From: Fibrobacteria bacterium
GTDB lineage: Bacteria; Fibrobacterota; Fibrobacteria; UBA11236
Reading direction: 5' to 3'
NCBI GenBank assembly: GCA_025360005.1
Contig: JANYDA010000030.1
Span: 62,001 to 126,000, forward strand
DNA: 64,000 nucleotides
Below the pieces are notes generated by a model. The model was given only the letters and a program-made list of their open reading frames with translations, did not search any database and was not told the DNA's origin. This document shows positions 42,356-49,909 of the stretch, one piece after another. Position 1 is the first letter of the stretch. The number at the start of each line of letters is the position of its first letter. Made by a program: the position numbers and the translations under genes.

Positions 42356-44077
42356 GTGACAGACTCCGCTCCTGGCGAGGAGGTTCCGCTCGGGGAAAAA
42401 GCGACCGATACATCGGAGCGTTACGGCGAAGACCTAACGTTTTCCCAGGATGCCGGCCTGGACATCCTGGCGGTGGTGGTCTCCCGCATCGCCATGTTCG
42501 CGGTTCTCTTCTGGACCGCGCTGACCTTCGACAAGGAATCCCTGGCCCGCGGACTGGTGATCATCTACGGCCTTTCCACCATTCTATACCTGGCCACCTG
42601 GGCTTCCTCCAATCGCTCCCGGCAAACATCGCCCGTGGGTTTCCTGCTCTTCTTCCAATTCCTCATCGAAGTCCTGGTGGAAGGGGCGATCTTCTTCTCC
42701 AACGACGGATACCTTTCCGACTACGGCCTGCTTTTTATCCTCACCATCCTCAGCGCGGGATTCTTCTTCCGCTACGTCGGATCCTTTCTGTTGGCGACCC
42801 TGGCCGTCTTGGTATTCGGATACGCGGGCCTTCTCCACTTGGGGCTTCCGGACACGCTCGATATCGAGTTGCCGCGGCTCCTGGTGGAAACGGTGCAGGT
42901 CCGTTTTTTCCTTTACACCACGCTCTTTTTCATGGTGGCACTGCTTTCCTCCCTCTTGTCCGGGCGCTTATGGGCCGCTCGCCGGGAGCTGGAGGGGACG
43001 CAAAGGGACAAGGAACTGTACCAGTTCAGCGCCGAATCGGTGATGAACGATTTGCAGACGGGACTTTTGTTTTTCGACGCGGAAGGCAAGCTCAAGCTTA
43101 AGAACCGATCCAGCGAGGAATGGCTCGGGATGCTTTTGGCGCCCGGCTTGGACCTAAAGGAAACCATGAAGAACCTGCTGCGGGAGGATGTCCTGGATGA
43201 TCTGCGCGAGCAGCGGGAACGGTTTCCCTACACGGAAATGGAAGTGGAGACCGTTTCCCAGGTCCCTTTGCACATCCAGATCAAGACCCTGATGCGGGAC
43301 GGAAAGTATTTCGGCAGCGTGTTCCTGCTGATCGATTTCACCGAAGAGAAGCGTATGGCGCGCACCCTGCTCCGTTCCGAGCGAATGGCGGCCCTGGGCG
43401 CCATGTCCGCCCGTATCGCCCATGAAATCCGCAATCCCTTGGCCAGCATCAGCGGCTCGGCCCAATTGCTTCGGGATGCAGTGCTCCAAAGCGAATCGGA
43501 CCGGAAGCTGGTCAGTCTTATCGTGACCGAATCGGCGCGCCTCAACCGTATCCTCACCGGTATGCTGGACTATGCCAAGGATCGGGCGCCCTCCAACCGC
43601 GAAGTCTCTATCGCCGAGATCTTCAGGAAAATCCAATTCATGCTGGAAAAGGATCCCGCCTTCCATAAGGAACTTGTAAATGTGCGGCAATTTATAGAAA
43701 ATGGGGATATTCGGTTTTTCAGCGATCCTGACATCATCGTACAGGTGCTGTTGAACGTCGTGCTGAACGCCGTGCAGGCATTGCCGGAGGGCCGGGGGAA
43801 CCTGCAATTCGAGGCCAAAACGGAAAGCGGCAAGGTGATCCTGCAAATCGTGGATAGTGGCAAAGGAATGGATAAGGACGAATCGTCCCGGGCTTTTGAG
43901 CCCTTCTATACCAACAAAACCAACGGCACCGGCTTGGGTCTCGCCACTTCATTGCATTATATGCAAGCCTTGGAAGGAAATATTACCTTGAACTCTTCAG
44001 TAGGGGCCGGGACCACCGTTACAATCAACCTGCCCTTCAATCAGCGCGGGATCGGATCGGGGAAGAATGGACATTAA
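42356..44077 (+). CDS. PilS-like membrane sensor histidine kinase
   Basis: 573 residues from GTG 42356. Several membrane helices lie between residues ~35 and 200, then a PAS-like domain ('VMNDLQTGLLFFDAEGKLKL'), HisKA with the phospho-acceptor His356 in 'RIAHEIRNPLASISG', and HATPase_c with N-box 'VLLNVVLNAVQALPEG' and 'GTGLGLATSLHYM'. Position after pilC fits PilS. No pilR-type regulator follows; instead a STAS-domain gene overlaps its end by 11 bp. Confidence 0.85.
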   Translation: MTDSAPGEEVPLGEKATDTSERYGEDLTFSQDAGLDILAVVVSRIAMFAVLFWTALTFDKESLARGLVIIYGLSTILYLATWASSNRSRQTSPVGFLLFFQFLIEVLVEGAIFFSNDGYLSDYGLLFILTILSAGFFFRYVGSFLLATLAVLVFGYAGLLHLGLPDTLDIELPRLLVETVQVRFFLYTTLFFMVALLSSLLSGRLWAARRELEGTQRDKELYQFSAESVMNDLQTGLLFFDAEGKLKLKNRSSEEWLGMLLAPGLDLKETMKNLLREDVLDDLREQRERFPYTEMEVETVSQVPLHIQIKTLMRDGKYFGSVFLLIDFTEEKRMARTLLRSERMAALGAMSARIAHEIRNPLASISGSAQLLRDAVLQSESDRKLVSLIVTESARLNRILTGMLDYAKDRAPSNREVSIAEIFRKIQFMLEKDPAFHKELVNVRQFIENGDIRFFSDPDIIVQVLLNVVLNAVQALPEGRGNLQFEAKTESGKVILQIVDSGKGMDKDESSRAFEPFYTNKTNGTGLGLATSLHYMQALEGNITLNSSVGAGTTVTINLPFNQRGIGSGKNGH

Positions 44078-44495: not shown

Positions 44496-44795
44496 ATGAA
44501 AATCGACAGAATCTCCCAAATATTCGGCATGGACCTCCAAAAGGTCGCCAATGGCGGGAAAAGCCCGGACAAGTCCGAGAAGCCAATCAAAGGCGACTCC
44601 GTCTCCCTGTCCAAGAAGGCAAAGGAACTGTCCTCTTCTTCCACTGAGTCGATTGCCCAGCATATCAACGCCTTGCCGGACGTCCGCGCCGGTAAAGTGC
44701 AGGAAGCCAAGGAAAAAATCGCCTCCGGCTATTTCAACTCGCCGGATTTTGAAGAGAAGCTGGCCGATAAGCTGATGAAGGAATTCGGCTTCTAG
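44496..44795 (+). CDS. flgM: Anti-sigma-28 factor FlgM
   Basis: 99 residues. The FlgM pattern is clear: a disordered N-terminal half with 'GDSVSLSKKAKEL', then the sigma-binding helices 'ALPDVRAGKVQEAKEKIASG' and 'YFNSPDFEEKLADKLMKEF'. It would hold a FliA-type sigma factor inactive until the flagellar hook is finished. GAGGAAG precedes the ATG, a sigma-28-like promoter lies upstream and an intrinsic terminator follows. No fliA is in the window. Confidence 0.88.
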   Translation: MKIDRISQIFGMDLQKVANGGKSPDKSEKPIKGDSVSLSKKAKELSSSSTESIAQHINALPDVRAGKVQEAKEKIASGYFNSPDFEEKLADKLMKEFGF

Positions 44796-44843
44796 AACCC
44801 AGTTCTCCCATCGGCTTGGGCCTATGCTAGACGCCCCATCATG

Positions 44844-44869
44844 AAAACCGGCTCCCGCCGGTTTTTTTT
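44844..44869 (+). terminator. Intrinsic terminator after flgM
   Basis: AAAACCGGC, loop TCCC, GCCGG and eight T's form a textbook Rho-independent terminator 49 bp after the flgM stop. An ATG overlapping it was therefore rejected as the start of the next gene. Confidence 0.92.
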
Positions 44870-44909
44870 ATCCCCAAGCCATGTCCCGGAGTTTTATAAT
44901 CGCTGCGTA

Positions 44910-45824
44910 ATGCCCAAGGCTCCGCTTCCGTTTTTTATCCTCGCCTGCTTGATTGGAACGCTCTCCGGGGGAGAAGGCCGCGAAAAAAGCGCCGGAGATG
45001 CACAGTCCGAATCGCTTCCCAAGGCCGCCCATGCGGCCTCCAACGAAAGCGAGACTACACCCCAACTTGCCCCTAAGCCGGATTCCACTTTCGCGAATGC
45101 ATTGGATTGGAACGACGGGGCCGCGGAAATCCTGGCCTACTCGGTCAAGCGGAACGGCAAGGGAGGGGAGTCGGTAGGCGAGGGCAGGTTGGTAACCGAA
45201 AGGATGATTTCCCATTCCGATGGATCAGCCGATCGCAAGGCCGCCGGAAAAGGGGACACGGAGATCCTGAACGCCCTGCTGATGAATTTCGGGGAAGAAA
45301 ACGGAGCCTTTTTTTCCAGTCAGACCACGGTGAAACTCGCGCGCCATGATAGGCTCCGCCTGCTGAGGCAGGACCAGTCCTTGCAAGCTTGGCCGGGGAC
45401 ATCCTATCGATCCCTGGATTGCCGGGTCACGCCCCCGCGCCTACGGATCTTTTCCAGCGGAGGCGAGGCGCCCAAGGATACCCTGATCGCGCGTTGGCCC
45501 GTGTACACGGAAGCCATGCTGTTCACCTACCTGCGATCGGTACCGTTACGTGTAGGTTACCGGGAGGAGCTGTGGTTCCAGGATTGGGCCGGGGAAGGAC
45601 GATTCGTCGCCGGTCCGCAATTCGCATCCATCACGGTACATTCCAAAACCACCAGCATCCGCGACATGGATACCTGGTATATCACCATGGACAGGGAAGA
45701 CGGCCGCAGGGCGGAGTTCTGGATCTCCTCCACCGGGTTGCACCCCGTTGTGCTCGCCGTTATGGGCGATAGATCGGAATGGACCTTGAAGGGGATATCC
45801 CGTAAAAAATACTGGAGTTGGTGA
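44910..45824 (+). CDS. Exported protein, possibly DUF3108-like
   Basis: 304 residues from ATG 44910 (MPKAPLPFFILACLIGTLSG), which gives a clean signal peptide and avoids the flgM terminator. A Ser/Ala/Glu-rich linker follows (residues ~25-70). The C-terminal half is beta-rich with 'MDTWYITMDREDGRRAEFWI' and 'HPVVLAVMGDRSEWTLKGIS', which recalls the end of DUF3108 envelope proteins. The match is weak. Function unknown. Confidence 0.6.
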   Translation: MPKAPLPFFILACLIGTLSGGEGREKSAGDAQSESLPKAAHAASNESETTPQLAPKPDSTFANALDWNDGAAEILAYSVKRNGKGGESVGEGRLVTERMISHSDGSADRKAAGKGDTEILNALLMNFGEENGAFFSSQTTVKLARHDRLRLLRQDQSLQAWPGTSYRSLDCRVTPPRLRIFSSGGEAPKDTLIARWPVYTEAMLFTYLRSVPLRVGYREELWFQDWAGEGRFVAGPQFASITVHSKTTSIRDMDTWYITMDREDGRRAEFWISSTGLHPVVLAVMGDRSEWTLKGISRKKYWSW

Positions 45825-45830
45825 TTCCCG

Positions 45831-45890
45831 GCTTCACCGATTTTCACTCCGCTTCACTTAACTTCACCTGACTTCACCCGTTTTCACCAG
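45831..45890 (+). repeat. Six tandem 10-bp units, each with TTCAC (putative enhancer array)
   Basis: TTCAC starts at 45833, 45843, 45853, 45863, 45873 and 45883, exactly 10 bp apart, with variable flanks (consensus NCTTCACCNG). All copies would face the same side of the helix. The array ends 73 bp before the -24 element of the sigma-54 promoter, the distance expected for an upstream activator site. Confidence 0.8.
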
Positions 45891-45960
45891 ACCCCGCTTC
45901 TCGCCATCGGCAAGTGCCCCTTTCAGGGGCCGAATCCATTTTTCTCCAAGCGGAGTGGTT

Positions 45961-45976
45961 TGGCACCGCCTTTGCA
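45961..45976 (+). promoter_or_regulatory. Sigma-54 promoter of the first spoVG
   Basis: TGGCAC, 5 bases, TTGCA: exact agreement with the -24/-12 consensus, with GG and GC ten bases apart. Transcription would begin near 45987, giving a leader of about 140 nt. It needs an ATP-driven enhancer-binding activator, which is not in the window. Confidence 0.82.
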
Positions 45977-46126
45977 TTGATTCCATCCGACCAGCCAAGA
46001 TAACGGCTCGGGACCGGATCCTCTCCGCAAGGAGCGGTGACGGGTTTACCCCGGGGTCTTGGCGGTTTTTATGAACCGGGTCGGGTTGCCCAAAGCGTCC
46101 GGCCGAGAATTGACTAAGGAGTCACA

Positions 46127-46414
46127 ATGTCCGTTAAAGGAATCGAAATCACAGAAATCAACATCCACCCTCTTCGCAACAAAAAGTCGGATAGCCCTCT
46201 CGAGGCTTTCGTACGGGTTGTCTTGAACGAACAGTTCGTGATCAACAGCATCAGGGTGGTGAAAGGGAAATTCGGCTTGTTCGTTTCCTTTCCCCGGGAA
46301 TACAACAAGAAGGAAGGCAAGGGTTACAACTACTGCTTTCCCATCACCAAATCCCTCCATGAATACATGTCGGAACGGATCCTGAACGAATATCGTTTGG
46401 CGGCCGCGGCCTGA
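46127..46414 (+). CDS. spoVG: SpoVG family nucleic-acid-binding regulator (copy 1)
   Basis: 95 residues. The SpoVG pattern is clear: 'EITEINIHPLRNKKSDSPLE' at the start, then 'AFVRVVLNEQFVINSIRVVK' and 'GKFGLFVSFPREYNKKEGKG', ending in a helix. SpoVG proteins are small dimers that bind DNA or RNA and control many genes in Firmicutes and Borrelia. AAGGAG precedes the ATG. A second, more divergent copy follows 142 bp downstream; the pair lie under a sigma-54 promoter. Confidence 0.9.
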   Translation: MSVKGIEITEINIHPLRNKKSDSPLEAFVRVVLNEQFVINSIRVVKGKFGLFVSFPREYNKKEGKGYNYCFPITKSLHEYMSERILNEYRLAAAA

Positions 46415-46425
46415 TCCCGTAAGCC

Positions 46426-46462
46426 GGCGAAAGGAGGGACCGGCTGTTCCCTCCTTTGCGCC
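46426..46462 (+). promoter_or_regulatory. Hairpin between the two spoVG genes
   Basis: GGCGAAAGGAGGGA and TCCCTCCTTTGCGCC pair over 14 bp with one bulge and an 8-base loop. No T-run follows. It could be a processing site or a partial terminator that sets the ratio of the two SpoVG proteins. Confidence 0.5.
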
Positions 46463-46556
46463 TTTCCGCCGGTTTCCGGATCCGCCATGGAGATGAATTT
46501 CCGCGGCCGGTTCCGGAAACCTTTTTAACGACTTATGAAAATCGAAAGAAAGAATC

Positions 46557-46832
46557 ATGGAAATCACATCGATCCAAATAGAACCCAATATCCATCCGGA
46601 AATGAAAGTGATCGCCACGGCCCAAGTGGTGCTCAACGGCAGCCTTTCCTTGCGCGGGATCAAAATCCTGAGGGGCCGCTATGGCTTGTTCCTGGCCTTT
46701 CCCGGCTTAGCGGCGGGCACGCCCTACCGCGCGTTTGAAACCTTGTCGATGCGCTTCCGCAAAGAATTGCAAGGCGAGATTCTTAAAGCCTATCAGAATC
46801 TCATGGCCACTCCGCTATCGCTTTTCGGGTAG
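46557..46832 (+). CDS. SpoVG-like protein (copy 2, divergent)
   Basis: 91 residues. It shares the SpoVG frame with copy 1 ('EITSIQIEPNIHP', 'VVLNGSLSLRGIKILRGRYG' and 'LFLAFPG') but lacks the basic 'YNKKEGKGYNY' loop, which reads 'GLAAGTPYRAF' instead. It may form heterodimers with copy 1 or have a different target. The Shine-Dalgarno is weak (GAAAGAAAG). Its stop is 6 bp before comM. Confidence 0.8.
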   Translation: MEITSIQIEPNIHPEMKVIATAQVVLNGSLSLRGIKILRGRYGLFLAFPGLAAGTPYRAFETLSMRFRKELQGEILKAYQNLMATPLSLFG

Positions 46833-46838
46833 GTCCCT

Positions 46839-48380
46839 ATGATATCCCTGATCGGCACCTGCGCTATCGCCGGTATTGACGCTTATCCCATCACGGTGGA
46901 GGTGGACATCGCCTCCGGCCTGCCGGGCTTCACCATGGTGGGCCTGCCGGATTCCGCCGTGAAGGAGGCTCGGGAAAGGGTTTTCGCGGCGCTCAAGAAC
47001 TCCGGATTCGTGGTGCCCAGCAAAAGGATCACCGTAAACCTGGCTCCCGGCGGAATCAAGAAGGAAGGCACGGCATTCGATCTGCCTTTAGCAATAGGAA
47101 TCCTGCTGGCCTCGGGGCAAATGGAATCCAGGCCCTTGGAAGGCTTTCTGTTTCTGGGAGAACTTTCCCTCGACGGCGCCATCCGCCCCGTGCGCGGCGT
47201 CCTTTCCGCAGCCATATATGCAAAGAGCCGCGGCCTGGCCGGTTTGGTGGTCCCCTCCGGGAACCGGGACGAAGGCAGCTTGGTGGAAGGGATAGGGCTC
47301 TTCGCGGCGGGAAACCTGCTTGAGGCGTTGGATTTTTTGCGGCGCCCCGGTTTTCCTTCACATGATAAGGATATCCGGAAAGAGCCCATGGATGAGGAAC
47401 ATTTGGACTTTTCGGAAGTGAAAGGCCAAGAGAACGCGAAGCGTGCCCTAGAAGTGGCTGCCGCTGGAGCCCACAATTTCCTTCTGGTTGGCAGCCCCGG
47501 TTGCGGCAAAACCTTATTGGCCAAACGGCTCCCTTCCATCCTGCCGCCCTTGAGTCCGGCCGAAGCTTTGGAGACCACGCGCGTTTACAGCGTAGCGGGG
47601 ATGATGAAAGCGGGTAGGCGCATTTCCGGCACGCGCCCGTTCCGATCCCCGCACCATTCCATCAGTTTACAGGCCTTGATCGGCGGCGGCGGATGGTCGC
47701 GACCCGGCGAGGTGAGTTTTGCGCATAATGGAGTGCTATTCCTTGATGAGCTTCCGGAGTTCCACCGCGATGCCATCGAAGCCTTGCGGCAACCGCTGGA
47801 AGAAGGCACCGTAACTGTTTCCCGCTCTCTGCAATCGGTGACCTACCCCAGCCGCAGCATGCTCGGAGTAGCCATGAACCCCTGCCCATGCGGATTTCTG
47901 ATGGATCGCAATCGCCGTTGTGTCTGCCGTATGGAGGAAATAGTGCGCTATCGTGCGCGGCTCTCCGGTCCCTTGTTGGACAGGATCGATCTGCACCTGG
48001 AATTGCCAAACCTCGATTTTTCGCAAATGGTCGATACCCGGCCGTGCGAACCGTCCGCTACCATCCGGGAAAGGGTGCGGATGGCAAGGCGGATTCAACG
48101 GGACCGCTTCCGAAAGGATTCGGGCCCGGAGATTTTCTGCAATGCATTCATGTCCGCGGCGCAGTTGAGGACGCACTGCGCATTGAACCAGGGGTGCAAG
48201 GATCTGATACGCCAGGCTGTCGAAACCCTGGGGCTTTCCGCCCGCGCTTTCGACCGGATCCTGAAAGTGGGGAGAACCATCGCGGACTTGGAAGGGAGCC
48301 CGCTTATCCGAGAGCGGCACGTAGCGGAAGCGGTGCATTATCGGAGCTTGGATAGGGAGCTATCTCCTTATCCCGCGTGA
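46839..48380 (+). CDS. comM: ComM/YifB-type AAA+ helicase (Mg-chelatase-like)
   Basis: 513 residues, normal size. N-terminal Lon-like fold ('VDIASGLPGFTMVGLPDSAV', 'RITVNLAPGGIKKEGTAFDL'), Walker A 'GSPGCGKTLLAKRLPSILPP' near residue 218, Walker B 'LFLDELPEFHRDAIEAL', a cysteine cluster 'NPCPCG...CVC' and the Mg-chelatase C-terminal helices. In Vibrio, ComM moves branches during natural transformation. It follows spoVG copy 2 by 6 bp; with PilB/PilT nearby a link to DNA uptake is possible but not shown. Confidence 0.93.
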   Translation: MISLIGTCAIAGIDAYPITVEVDIASGLPGFTMVGLPDSAVKEARERVFAALKNSGFVVPSKRITVNLAPGGIKKEGTAFDLPLAIGILLASGQMESRPLEGFLFLGELSLDGAIRPVRGVLSAAIYAKSRGLAGLVVPSGNRDEGSLVEGIGLFAAGNLLEALDFLRRPGFPSHDKDIRKEPMDEEHLDFSEVKGQENAKRALEVAAAGAHNFLLVGSPGCGKTLLAKRLPSILPPLSPAEALETTRVYSVAGMMKAGRRISGTRPFRSPHHSISLQALIGGGGWSRPGEVSFAHNGVLFLDELPEFHRDAIEALRQPLEEGTVTVSRSLQSVTYPSRSMLGVAMNPCPCGFLMDRNRRCVCRMEEIVRYRARLSGPLLDRIDLHLELPNLDFSQMVDTRPCEPSATIRERVRMARRIQRDRFRKDSGPEIFCNAFMSAAQLRTHCALNQGCKDLIRQAVETLGLSARAFDRILKVGRTIADLEGSPLIRERHVAEAVHYRSLDRELSPYPA

Positions 48381-49542: not shown

Positions 49543-49909
49543 GGGGGCGCCAAGGTTTCGACGGGATTGGATGAGCTGATAGTTGCATGCCGAGGATTCT
49601 GGTTGGCCTCGTAAAAAAACCGGAAAAAAACAAATGCAGAAGAATCATATTCTTATGCAATGGCTGCCTAGTTAATAGCTAGGTGACCACGGTTCGTAGG
49701 TCGCCGCCTTAAAGGCCGACGAATTGGAATACTCTGAGGCTGGGTTTCCCCGATGCCTGGGCATGGAAGCCGAGAAAAACCAGGCTAGCGATTCGAAGAA
49801 CCAGTTCCTTGGGTGCTTCGGGTAGCGAGAATCAAATCAGGAAAAAAGCATGTAGGAGCGACCGGTAAGTTGATTTCGGACGCGGGTTCGATTCCCGCCG
49901 CCTCCACCA
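49543..49909 (+). ncRNA. ssrA: tmRNA (10Sa RNA)
   Basis: 367 nt. The tRNA-like ends pair (GGGGGCG with CGCCTCC, then ACCA encoded). The 5' block CGCCAAGGTTTCGACGGGA and the 3' T-arm GGTTCGATTCCC are universal tmRNA features. The tag frame near 49634-49672 reads NAEESYSYAMAA followed by TAG; which codon resumes translation (probably GCA, giving AEESYSYAMAA) is uncertain. It rescues stalled ribosomes with SmpB. Confidence 0.96.

Follow-up and report, generated by a model that had tools for sequence, protein, structure and literature searches.

We found that spoVG in the Fibrobacteria is preceded by a conserved sigma-54 box, which in the family of the window's genome stands in fixed helical phase with an array of short, same-orientation words, and that the gene is linked to comM. 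We propose that the spoVG-(spoVG2)-comM operon is driven by an enhancer-dependent sigma-54 promoter and activated by a bEBP (an AAA+ sigma-54 activator) acting from the direct-repeat array, a reading that we would give a probability of roughly 70%. The locus was analyzed in a stretch of 64,000 nucleotides, here called the window, and the features that concern us are as follows:

42356..44077, + strand: orphan membrane histidine kinase, after pilB-pilT-pilC (domain search)
44841..45824, + strand: upstream ORF of 327 aa, no Pfam family (ORF list, Pfam)
45833..45887, + strand: proposed enhancer of six TTCAC words, unit YTTCACY (sequence, uniqueness in the genome, conservation in the family)
45916..45930, no strand assigned: inverted repeat GCCCCT-TTC-AGGGGC between array and promoter (sequence and in silico fold)
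45961..45976, + strand: sigma-54 (-24/-12) promoter TGGCACCGCCTTTGCA, predicted start near 45987 (sequence and conservation)
45987..46126, + strand: leader of 140 nt, predicted, structured in silico, counted from the predicted start (sequence and fold)
46127..46414, + strand: spoVG, 95 aa (Pfam PF04026, 2.4e-18)
46557..46832, + strand: second spoVG paralogue (spoVG2), 91 aa (Pfam, synteny)
46839..48380, + strand: comM/yifB-type Mg-chelatase-like AAA+ gene (Pfam, synteny)

The TTCAC words start at 45833, 45843, 45853, 45863, 45873 and 45883, a period of exactly 10 bp, as the initial annotation had described. Its statement that such spacing is too regular for chance was borne out by shuffling: the three-copy phased pattern has 4 overlapping matches in the window, as against 0.00 expected from 100 shuffles of the window. 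Across the whole genome (4.98 Mb) this pattern matches only the spoVG array, with 0 matches for the reversed-pattern control, and 5 of the 6 matches to the two-copy phased pattern also fall inside that array. When 35 words from the arrays of the family were compared, a pyrimidine stood on the 5' side in 32 and on the 3' side in 32, with the remaining positions of the unit near random. The pentamer is thus invariant and the linkers are variable, save for the C/T preference beside the word; a perfect word between variable linkers resembles a binding site and not a slippage repeat. The words are also strongly biased in strand (37 TTCAC versus 6 GTGAA in 3300 bp of upstream sequence), such that the dyad symmetry of each site that is typical of bEBP enhancers, if not universal among them, is absent here. 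We found no further sigma-54 promoter with the same array in the window's genome (G000), nor in half of the genome of G154, a member of the sister family.

The box lies 73 bp past the array end at 45887 and is a perfect TGGCAC-N5-TTGCA at 45961-45976, in agreement with the initial annotation, with the GG of the -24 element and the GC of the -12 element spaced as in sigma-54 promoters. Considered alone the box is unremarkable, as approximately 1.2 one-mismatch matches are expected within the window, and genome-wide there are 16 box matches versus 9 in the reversed control; its significance therefore comes from conservation. A scan of 45600-46900 for sigma-70-like promoters found none. In all six genomes of the genus a hairpin of the GGCCCCT...AGGGGCC type separates the array from the promoter, and some sister-family loci (e.g. 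L218) have similar hairpins in the same position. A simple terminator scan did not flag the inverted repeat at 45916-45930, which probably serves as a terminator of the upstream gene or as a bending element. Downstream of the box, the 45985-46126 leader folds strongly in silico (-56.9 kcal/mol, a value calculated without a shuffle control), the ribosome-binding site AAGGAG is at 46116-46121, and ATGAACC-like starts recur in relatives.

The initial annotation had named lack of conservation in close relatives as grounds for giving up its proposal. We applied this test to a family set of ten genomes, G000 to G009, all of which have a spoVG orthologue, and it did not refute the proposal: the array was found in eight and the box, in some variant, in all ten. 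The phased TTCAC words keep a 10-bp register and number two to six: six in G000, four in G002 and in G003 (each with one more out of register), four in G004 (with one gap), four in G006, three in G009, three in G001 (with one gap) and two in G005. G007 retains a single exact copy and G008 lacks the word, yet both keep the box; drift of the word or dispensability of the array in these two genomes would account for this, and the observation weighs against our reading. The reversed TTCAC pattern had almost no matches in the family genomes. The box is canonical in G000 through G004 and ends in TTGCG in G005; the variants are TCGCA in G006 and G009, TGGCCC...TTGCG in G007 and TTGTT in G008. The -12 element is therefore atypical in G006 through G009, and this counts against the explanation that we favor.

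The distance from the nearest word to the -24 element differs among genomes, at 46, 66, 67, 68, 78, 79, 79, 88 and 98 bp, and yet these distances share one helical phase. At 10.5 bp per turn R is 0.885, with a Rayleigh p of 0.0009 when the genomes are treated as independent and relatedness is ignored, and of 0.0015 when duplicate distances are dropped (relatedness again ignored); because the genomes are not independent, the Rayleigh p is only an indicative figure. Insertions and deletions between array and promoter thus appear to have stayed near whole-turn multiples, which is what a looping activator would demand. Several upstream sites that tolerate changes in distance (46-98 bp) and keep their phase are the behavior of a bEBP enhancer, and the suggestion of an enhancer acting from this distance is consistent with the phase coupling seen across the family.

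To place these results more broadly, we sampled 30 genomes from all parts of the phylum, followed by 34 spoVG loci of the class Fibrobacteria. The box TGGCA[CT]-N5-[TC]TGC is present ahead of spoVG in 32 of the 34 class loci, 30 of them strictly and 2 lacking only the leading T, so that the predicted sigma-54 promoter ahead of spoVG, first noted in the window, extends through the class. The two loci that lack it (L230 and L231, in G099 and G109) are Fibrobacter spoVG paralogues on other, apparently mobile DNA, without comM. Wherever the flank is long enough, comM lies directly downstream of spoVG at the box-bearing loci, and in one group of class loci pilC precedes spoVG. Neither the box nor a comM neighbor was found for spoVG of other classes in the phylum, or for that of G163, which belongs to the same order. 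In family f5, comM and a TTTGGCAC element are present and the canonical -12 element is absent. The sister family (f4) mostly has [AG]ATCA in place of TTCAC as its upstream word, and a spacing of 10-11 bp is far commoner there than in a mononucleotide shuffle (12 versus 0.14 at 11 bp; 6 versus 0.12 at 10 bp). Some sister-family arrays contain GTGATTAATCAC dyads, and in G054 the array word is a AGTGTCCAAAA repeat. As the letters TCA(C) are common to TTCAC and [AG]ATCA, both may be read by a single activator whose specificity has shifted.

The gene that follows the promoter is a whole-protein SpoVG: the domain (PF04026) spans residues 7-90 of the 95 and scores 66.5 bits against a cut-off of 29.6, with the NCBIfam match falling below the NCBIfam cut-off. 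The initial annotation had taken spoVG as the target, and spoVG does lie directly downstream, but it is not alone. It is followed by spoVG2 and, after a further 6 bp, by comM, which makes a spoVG-spoVG2-comM transcription unit likely. The comM product has the ChlI-Mg_chelatase-Mg_chelatase_C architecture of ComM. The second paralogue is present in the other four genomes of the genus that were checked for synteny, and a separate second copy is absent from the sister genus. Upstream of spoVG and on the same strand are pilB, pilT, pilC, the orphan membrane histidine kinase, a STAS protein and a FlgM-like protein; the last, an anti-sigma-28 protein at 44496-44792, adjoins the pilus genes and the STAS protein. 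In the sister genus and the sister family, different genes stand in place of the 327-aa ORF that follows. Speculatively, the histidine kinase could be a sensor for the circuit. Elsewhere in the window a tmRNA gene occupies 49543-49909, just 3' of a flagellin gene, and an Rfam scan of the window at the gathering threshold found nothing but this tmRNA.

In the mechanism that we propose, the bEBP would line up along a single face of the helix, with one protomer or half-dimer per helical turn occupying adjacent YTTCACY words. Looping of the intervening DNA would then bring it to the promoter, where it would open the sigma-54 polymerase complex at 45961-45976. SpoVG is a nucleic-acid-binding regulator, and ComM is the established branch-migration helicase of natural transformation. 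The content of the operon and the frequent neighbor pilC together point to a possible connection with type IV pili or DNA uptake. A wider proposal, which we put forward tentatively and hold at somewhat less than even odds, is that a dedicated, one-target sigma-54 activator of a novel binding class reads one pentamer per turn and controls the SpoVG-ComM operon throughout the Fibrobacteria, its word rewritten between families (YTTCACY, [AG]ATCA, AGTGTCCAAAA) with geometry and promoter kept, and SpoVG tied to DNA uptake.

We searched the genomes for proteins that could fill this role. The window's genome encodes 17 full-length bEBPs, from which we infer that RpoN is present there as well; in G154 the RpoN box is encoded. 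Two of these bEBPs have counterparts in each of the five relatives compared. A (L241) is NifA-like and has a GAF domain (sister genus, 77%), and B (L243) has a degenerate receiver and adjoins dnaK-dnaJ (72-75%). Two others, C (L244) and D (L239), each accompanied by a kinase, lack a counterpart in G007 alone, a genome that is 87% complete. C and D are unlikely activators of spoVG, because the sigma-54 boxes beside their genes carry GGTAACCC-ATAT-GGGTTACC or TGCGCA repeats, an argument from adjacency that assumes each acts on its neighbor. A, B and the PspF-like P (L252) remain as conserved candidates. The half of the G154 genome that was examined (1.6 Mb) contains weak relatives of A (38%) and P (47%), and no clear relatives of B, C or D. 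No phased TTCAC pair leading to a sigma-54 box was found near a bEBP gene, and position thus offers no clue to the activator. Other sigma-54 boxes of the window's genome have dyads upstream, and bEBPs bind dyads more often; both points weigh against our preferred explanation.

Several sigma-54 boxes encountered in this search deserve mention in their own right. At G000:C8:70608 (L060) a box precedes the gene for an ECF sigma factor, and four TGCGCA words stand upstream at intervals of 14, 10 and 11 bp, a putative second phased direct-repeat enhancer in this genome. At G000:C11:179046 (L062) the perfect dyad GGTAACCC-ATAT-GGGTTACC precedes a box just past a kinase-bEBP pair, and the target may be a small exported protein. 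Boxes also stand ahead of heat-shock genes (Hsp20, HtpG) at G000:C21:134985 (L066) and at G154:C1:181943 and 1415000, which, together with the position of B (L243) beside dnaK-dnaJ, raises the possibility of sigma-54 heat-shock control in the class Fibrobacteria.

The array could instead be occupied by a response regulator of the OmpR/PhoB type, in the way that CreB binds TTCAC-N6-TTCAC. Such a regulator would modulate the sigma-54 promoter, while the opening itself would fall to a bEBP that binds at another site or acts from solution. OmpR-type proteins bind direct repeats of 10-11 bp, at least four such regulators are common to both genera, and within the phylum TTCAC arrays of 11-bp period precede creD in G001 and a CreD-like ORF in G032. 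By the established mechanism, OmpR-type proteins cannot open sigma-54 complexes, so that this reading needs a second activator. The cre/blr tag likewise consists of directly repeated TTCAC (PMC4689548, PMC3660660), but CreD is absent from the window's genome and from the whole sister genus. With the CreB orthologue of G005 as query, nothing above 36-37% was found in G000, G006, G008 and G009, although the longest array of all is that of G000 and good arrays are present in G006 and G009. The spoVG array moreover has a period of 10 bp, not 11. We consider an OmpR-type occupant unlikely overall, though a regulator of this type other than CreB could sit on the array next to a bEBP. CreB itself is an unlikely binder of the array: the word matches, but no orthologue was found in the four genomes tested and the period differs by 1 bp.

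We judge it less probable still that the array is a binding site for SpoVG, which would thereby autoregulate its own operon while the sigma-54 promoter is activated from another place. Homologues of SpoVG bind DNA at specific sites, with a word that varies by species; the protein of Staphylococcus aureus prefers DNA with at least two TAATT(T/A) motifs, and specificity is set by a 6-residue stretch of helix (PMC3688583). Within the Fibrobacteria, both the array word and SpoVG (28-38% identity) change from one family to another. A constant helical phase relative to the promoter, however, is expected of a looping activator rather than of simple autorepression, and we know of no SpoVG with helix-phased arrays. 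Finally, the array begins 8 bp past the stop codon of the ORF upstream, but it is scarcely credible that it is a leftover tandem repeat, or a part of that gene, which lies ahead of spoVG only incidentally. This reading is already contradicted by the conservation data, as the word is perfect while the linkers vary, the array remains with spoVG in the sister genus although the upstream gene is another, and the phase with the promoter is kept.

If the activation of spoVG by a bEBP on the array is correct, then a widespread regulator, known mainly from the sporulation and virulence genes of other phyla, would be under sigma-54 control throughout a class, in one operon with ComM, the helicase of transformation. 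The footprint in ten genomes provides a ready test of how a sigma-54 activator can read a single short word of a direct repeat at each turn, and the altered words of the sister family would serve as a natural experiment in the coevolution of activator and DNA. The initial annotation knew of no sigma-54 control of SpoVG, and we likewise found no report in the open-licence literature of such control or of a sigma-54 spoVG-comM operon.

The array word itself matches the cre/blr tag of CreB/BlrA, a known two-component tag with TTCAC in direct repeat that the earlier reading of the array had overlooked. The tag is TTCAC-N6-TTCAC, has an 11-bp period and lies ahead of creD and beta-lactamase genes, whereas all of the spoVG arrays have N5 and 10 bp. 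The arrays directly ahead of creD at G001:C53:1285-1333 (L044) and ahead of the CreD-like ORF in G032 (L086) are on this basis cre/blr tags in the Fibrobacterota, apparently undescribed.

The sites of PilR, a bEBP of type IV pili, hold tandem pentamers, and the PilS-PilR systems of Pseudomonas and Geobacter resemble the present locus in their short repeated elements; at this locus, too, pilus genes (pilB-pilT-pilC) and an orphan membrane kinase are found upstream. PilR sites include GTCT elements (PMC6058289), which differ from the word described here, and no pilR is found beside the kinase. General bEBP promoters of the NtrC, NifA and PspF type share with the spoVG locus an exact TGGCAC-N5-TTGCA core and a multi-site element within about 45-130 bp upstream. 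They differ in having one or two dyads in place of two to six same-orientation pentamers, one per turn, and the target here is spoVG-comM.

The nearest precedent for the arrangement is Nla28 of Myxococcus xanthus, a sigma-54 bEBP with a direct-repeat site of 8-bp repeats upstream of TGGCACG-N4-TTGC promoters (PMC9765219). Its word is CT(C/G)CG(C/G)AG, with a mean half-site spacing of 25 bp and a large regulon, in contrast to the 5-bp word, 10-bp period and single target per genome seen here. The contrast that the initial annotation drew between direct repeats and dyad enhancers thus holds insofar as the array contains no dyads, but its novelty was overstated, as the direct repeats of Nla28 were already known. 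Elsewhere, spoVG is driven by other sigma factors. That of Bacillus is driven by sigma-H; here the predicted promoter is of the sigma-54 type. Direct-repeat sites of sigma-54 activators have thus been seen before, and what is new is the predicted sigma-54 target, spoVG-comM, and the footprint that accompanies it across the clade.
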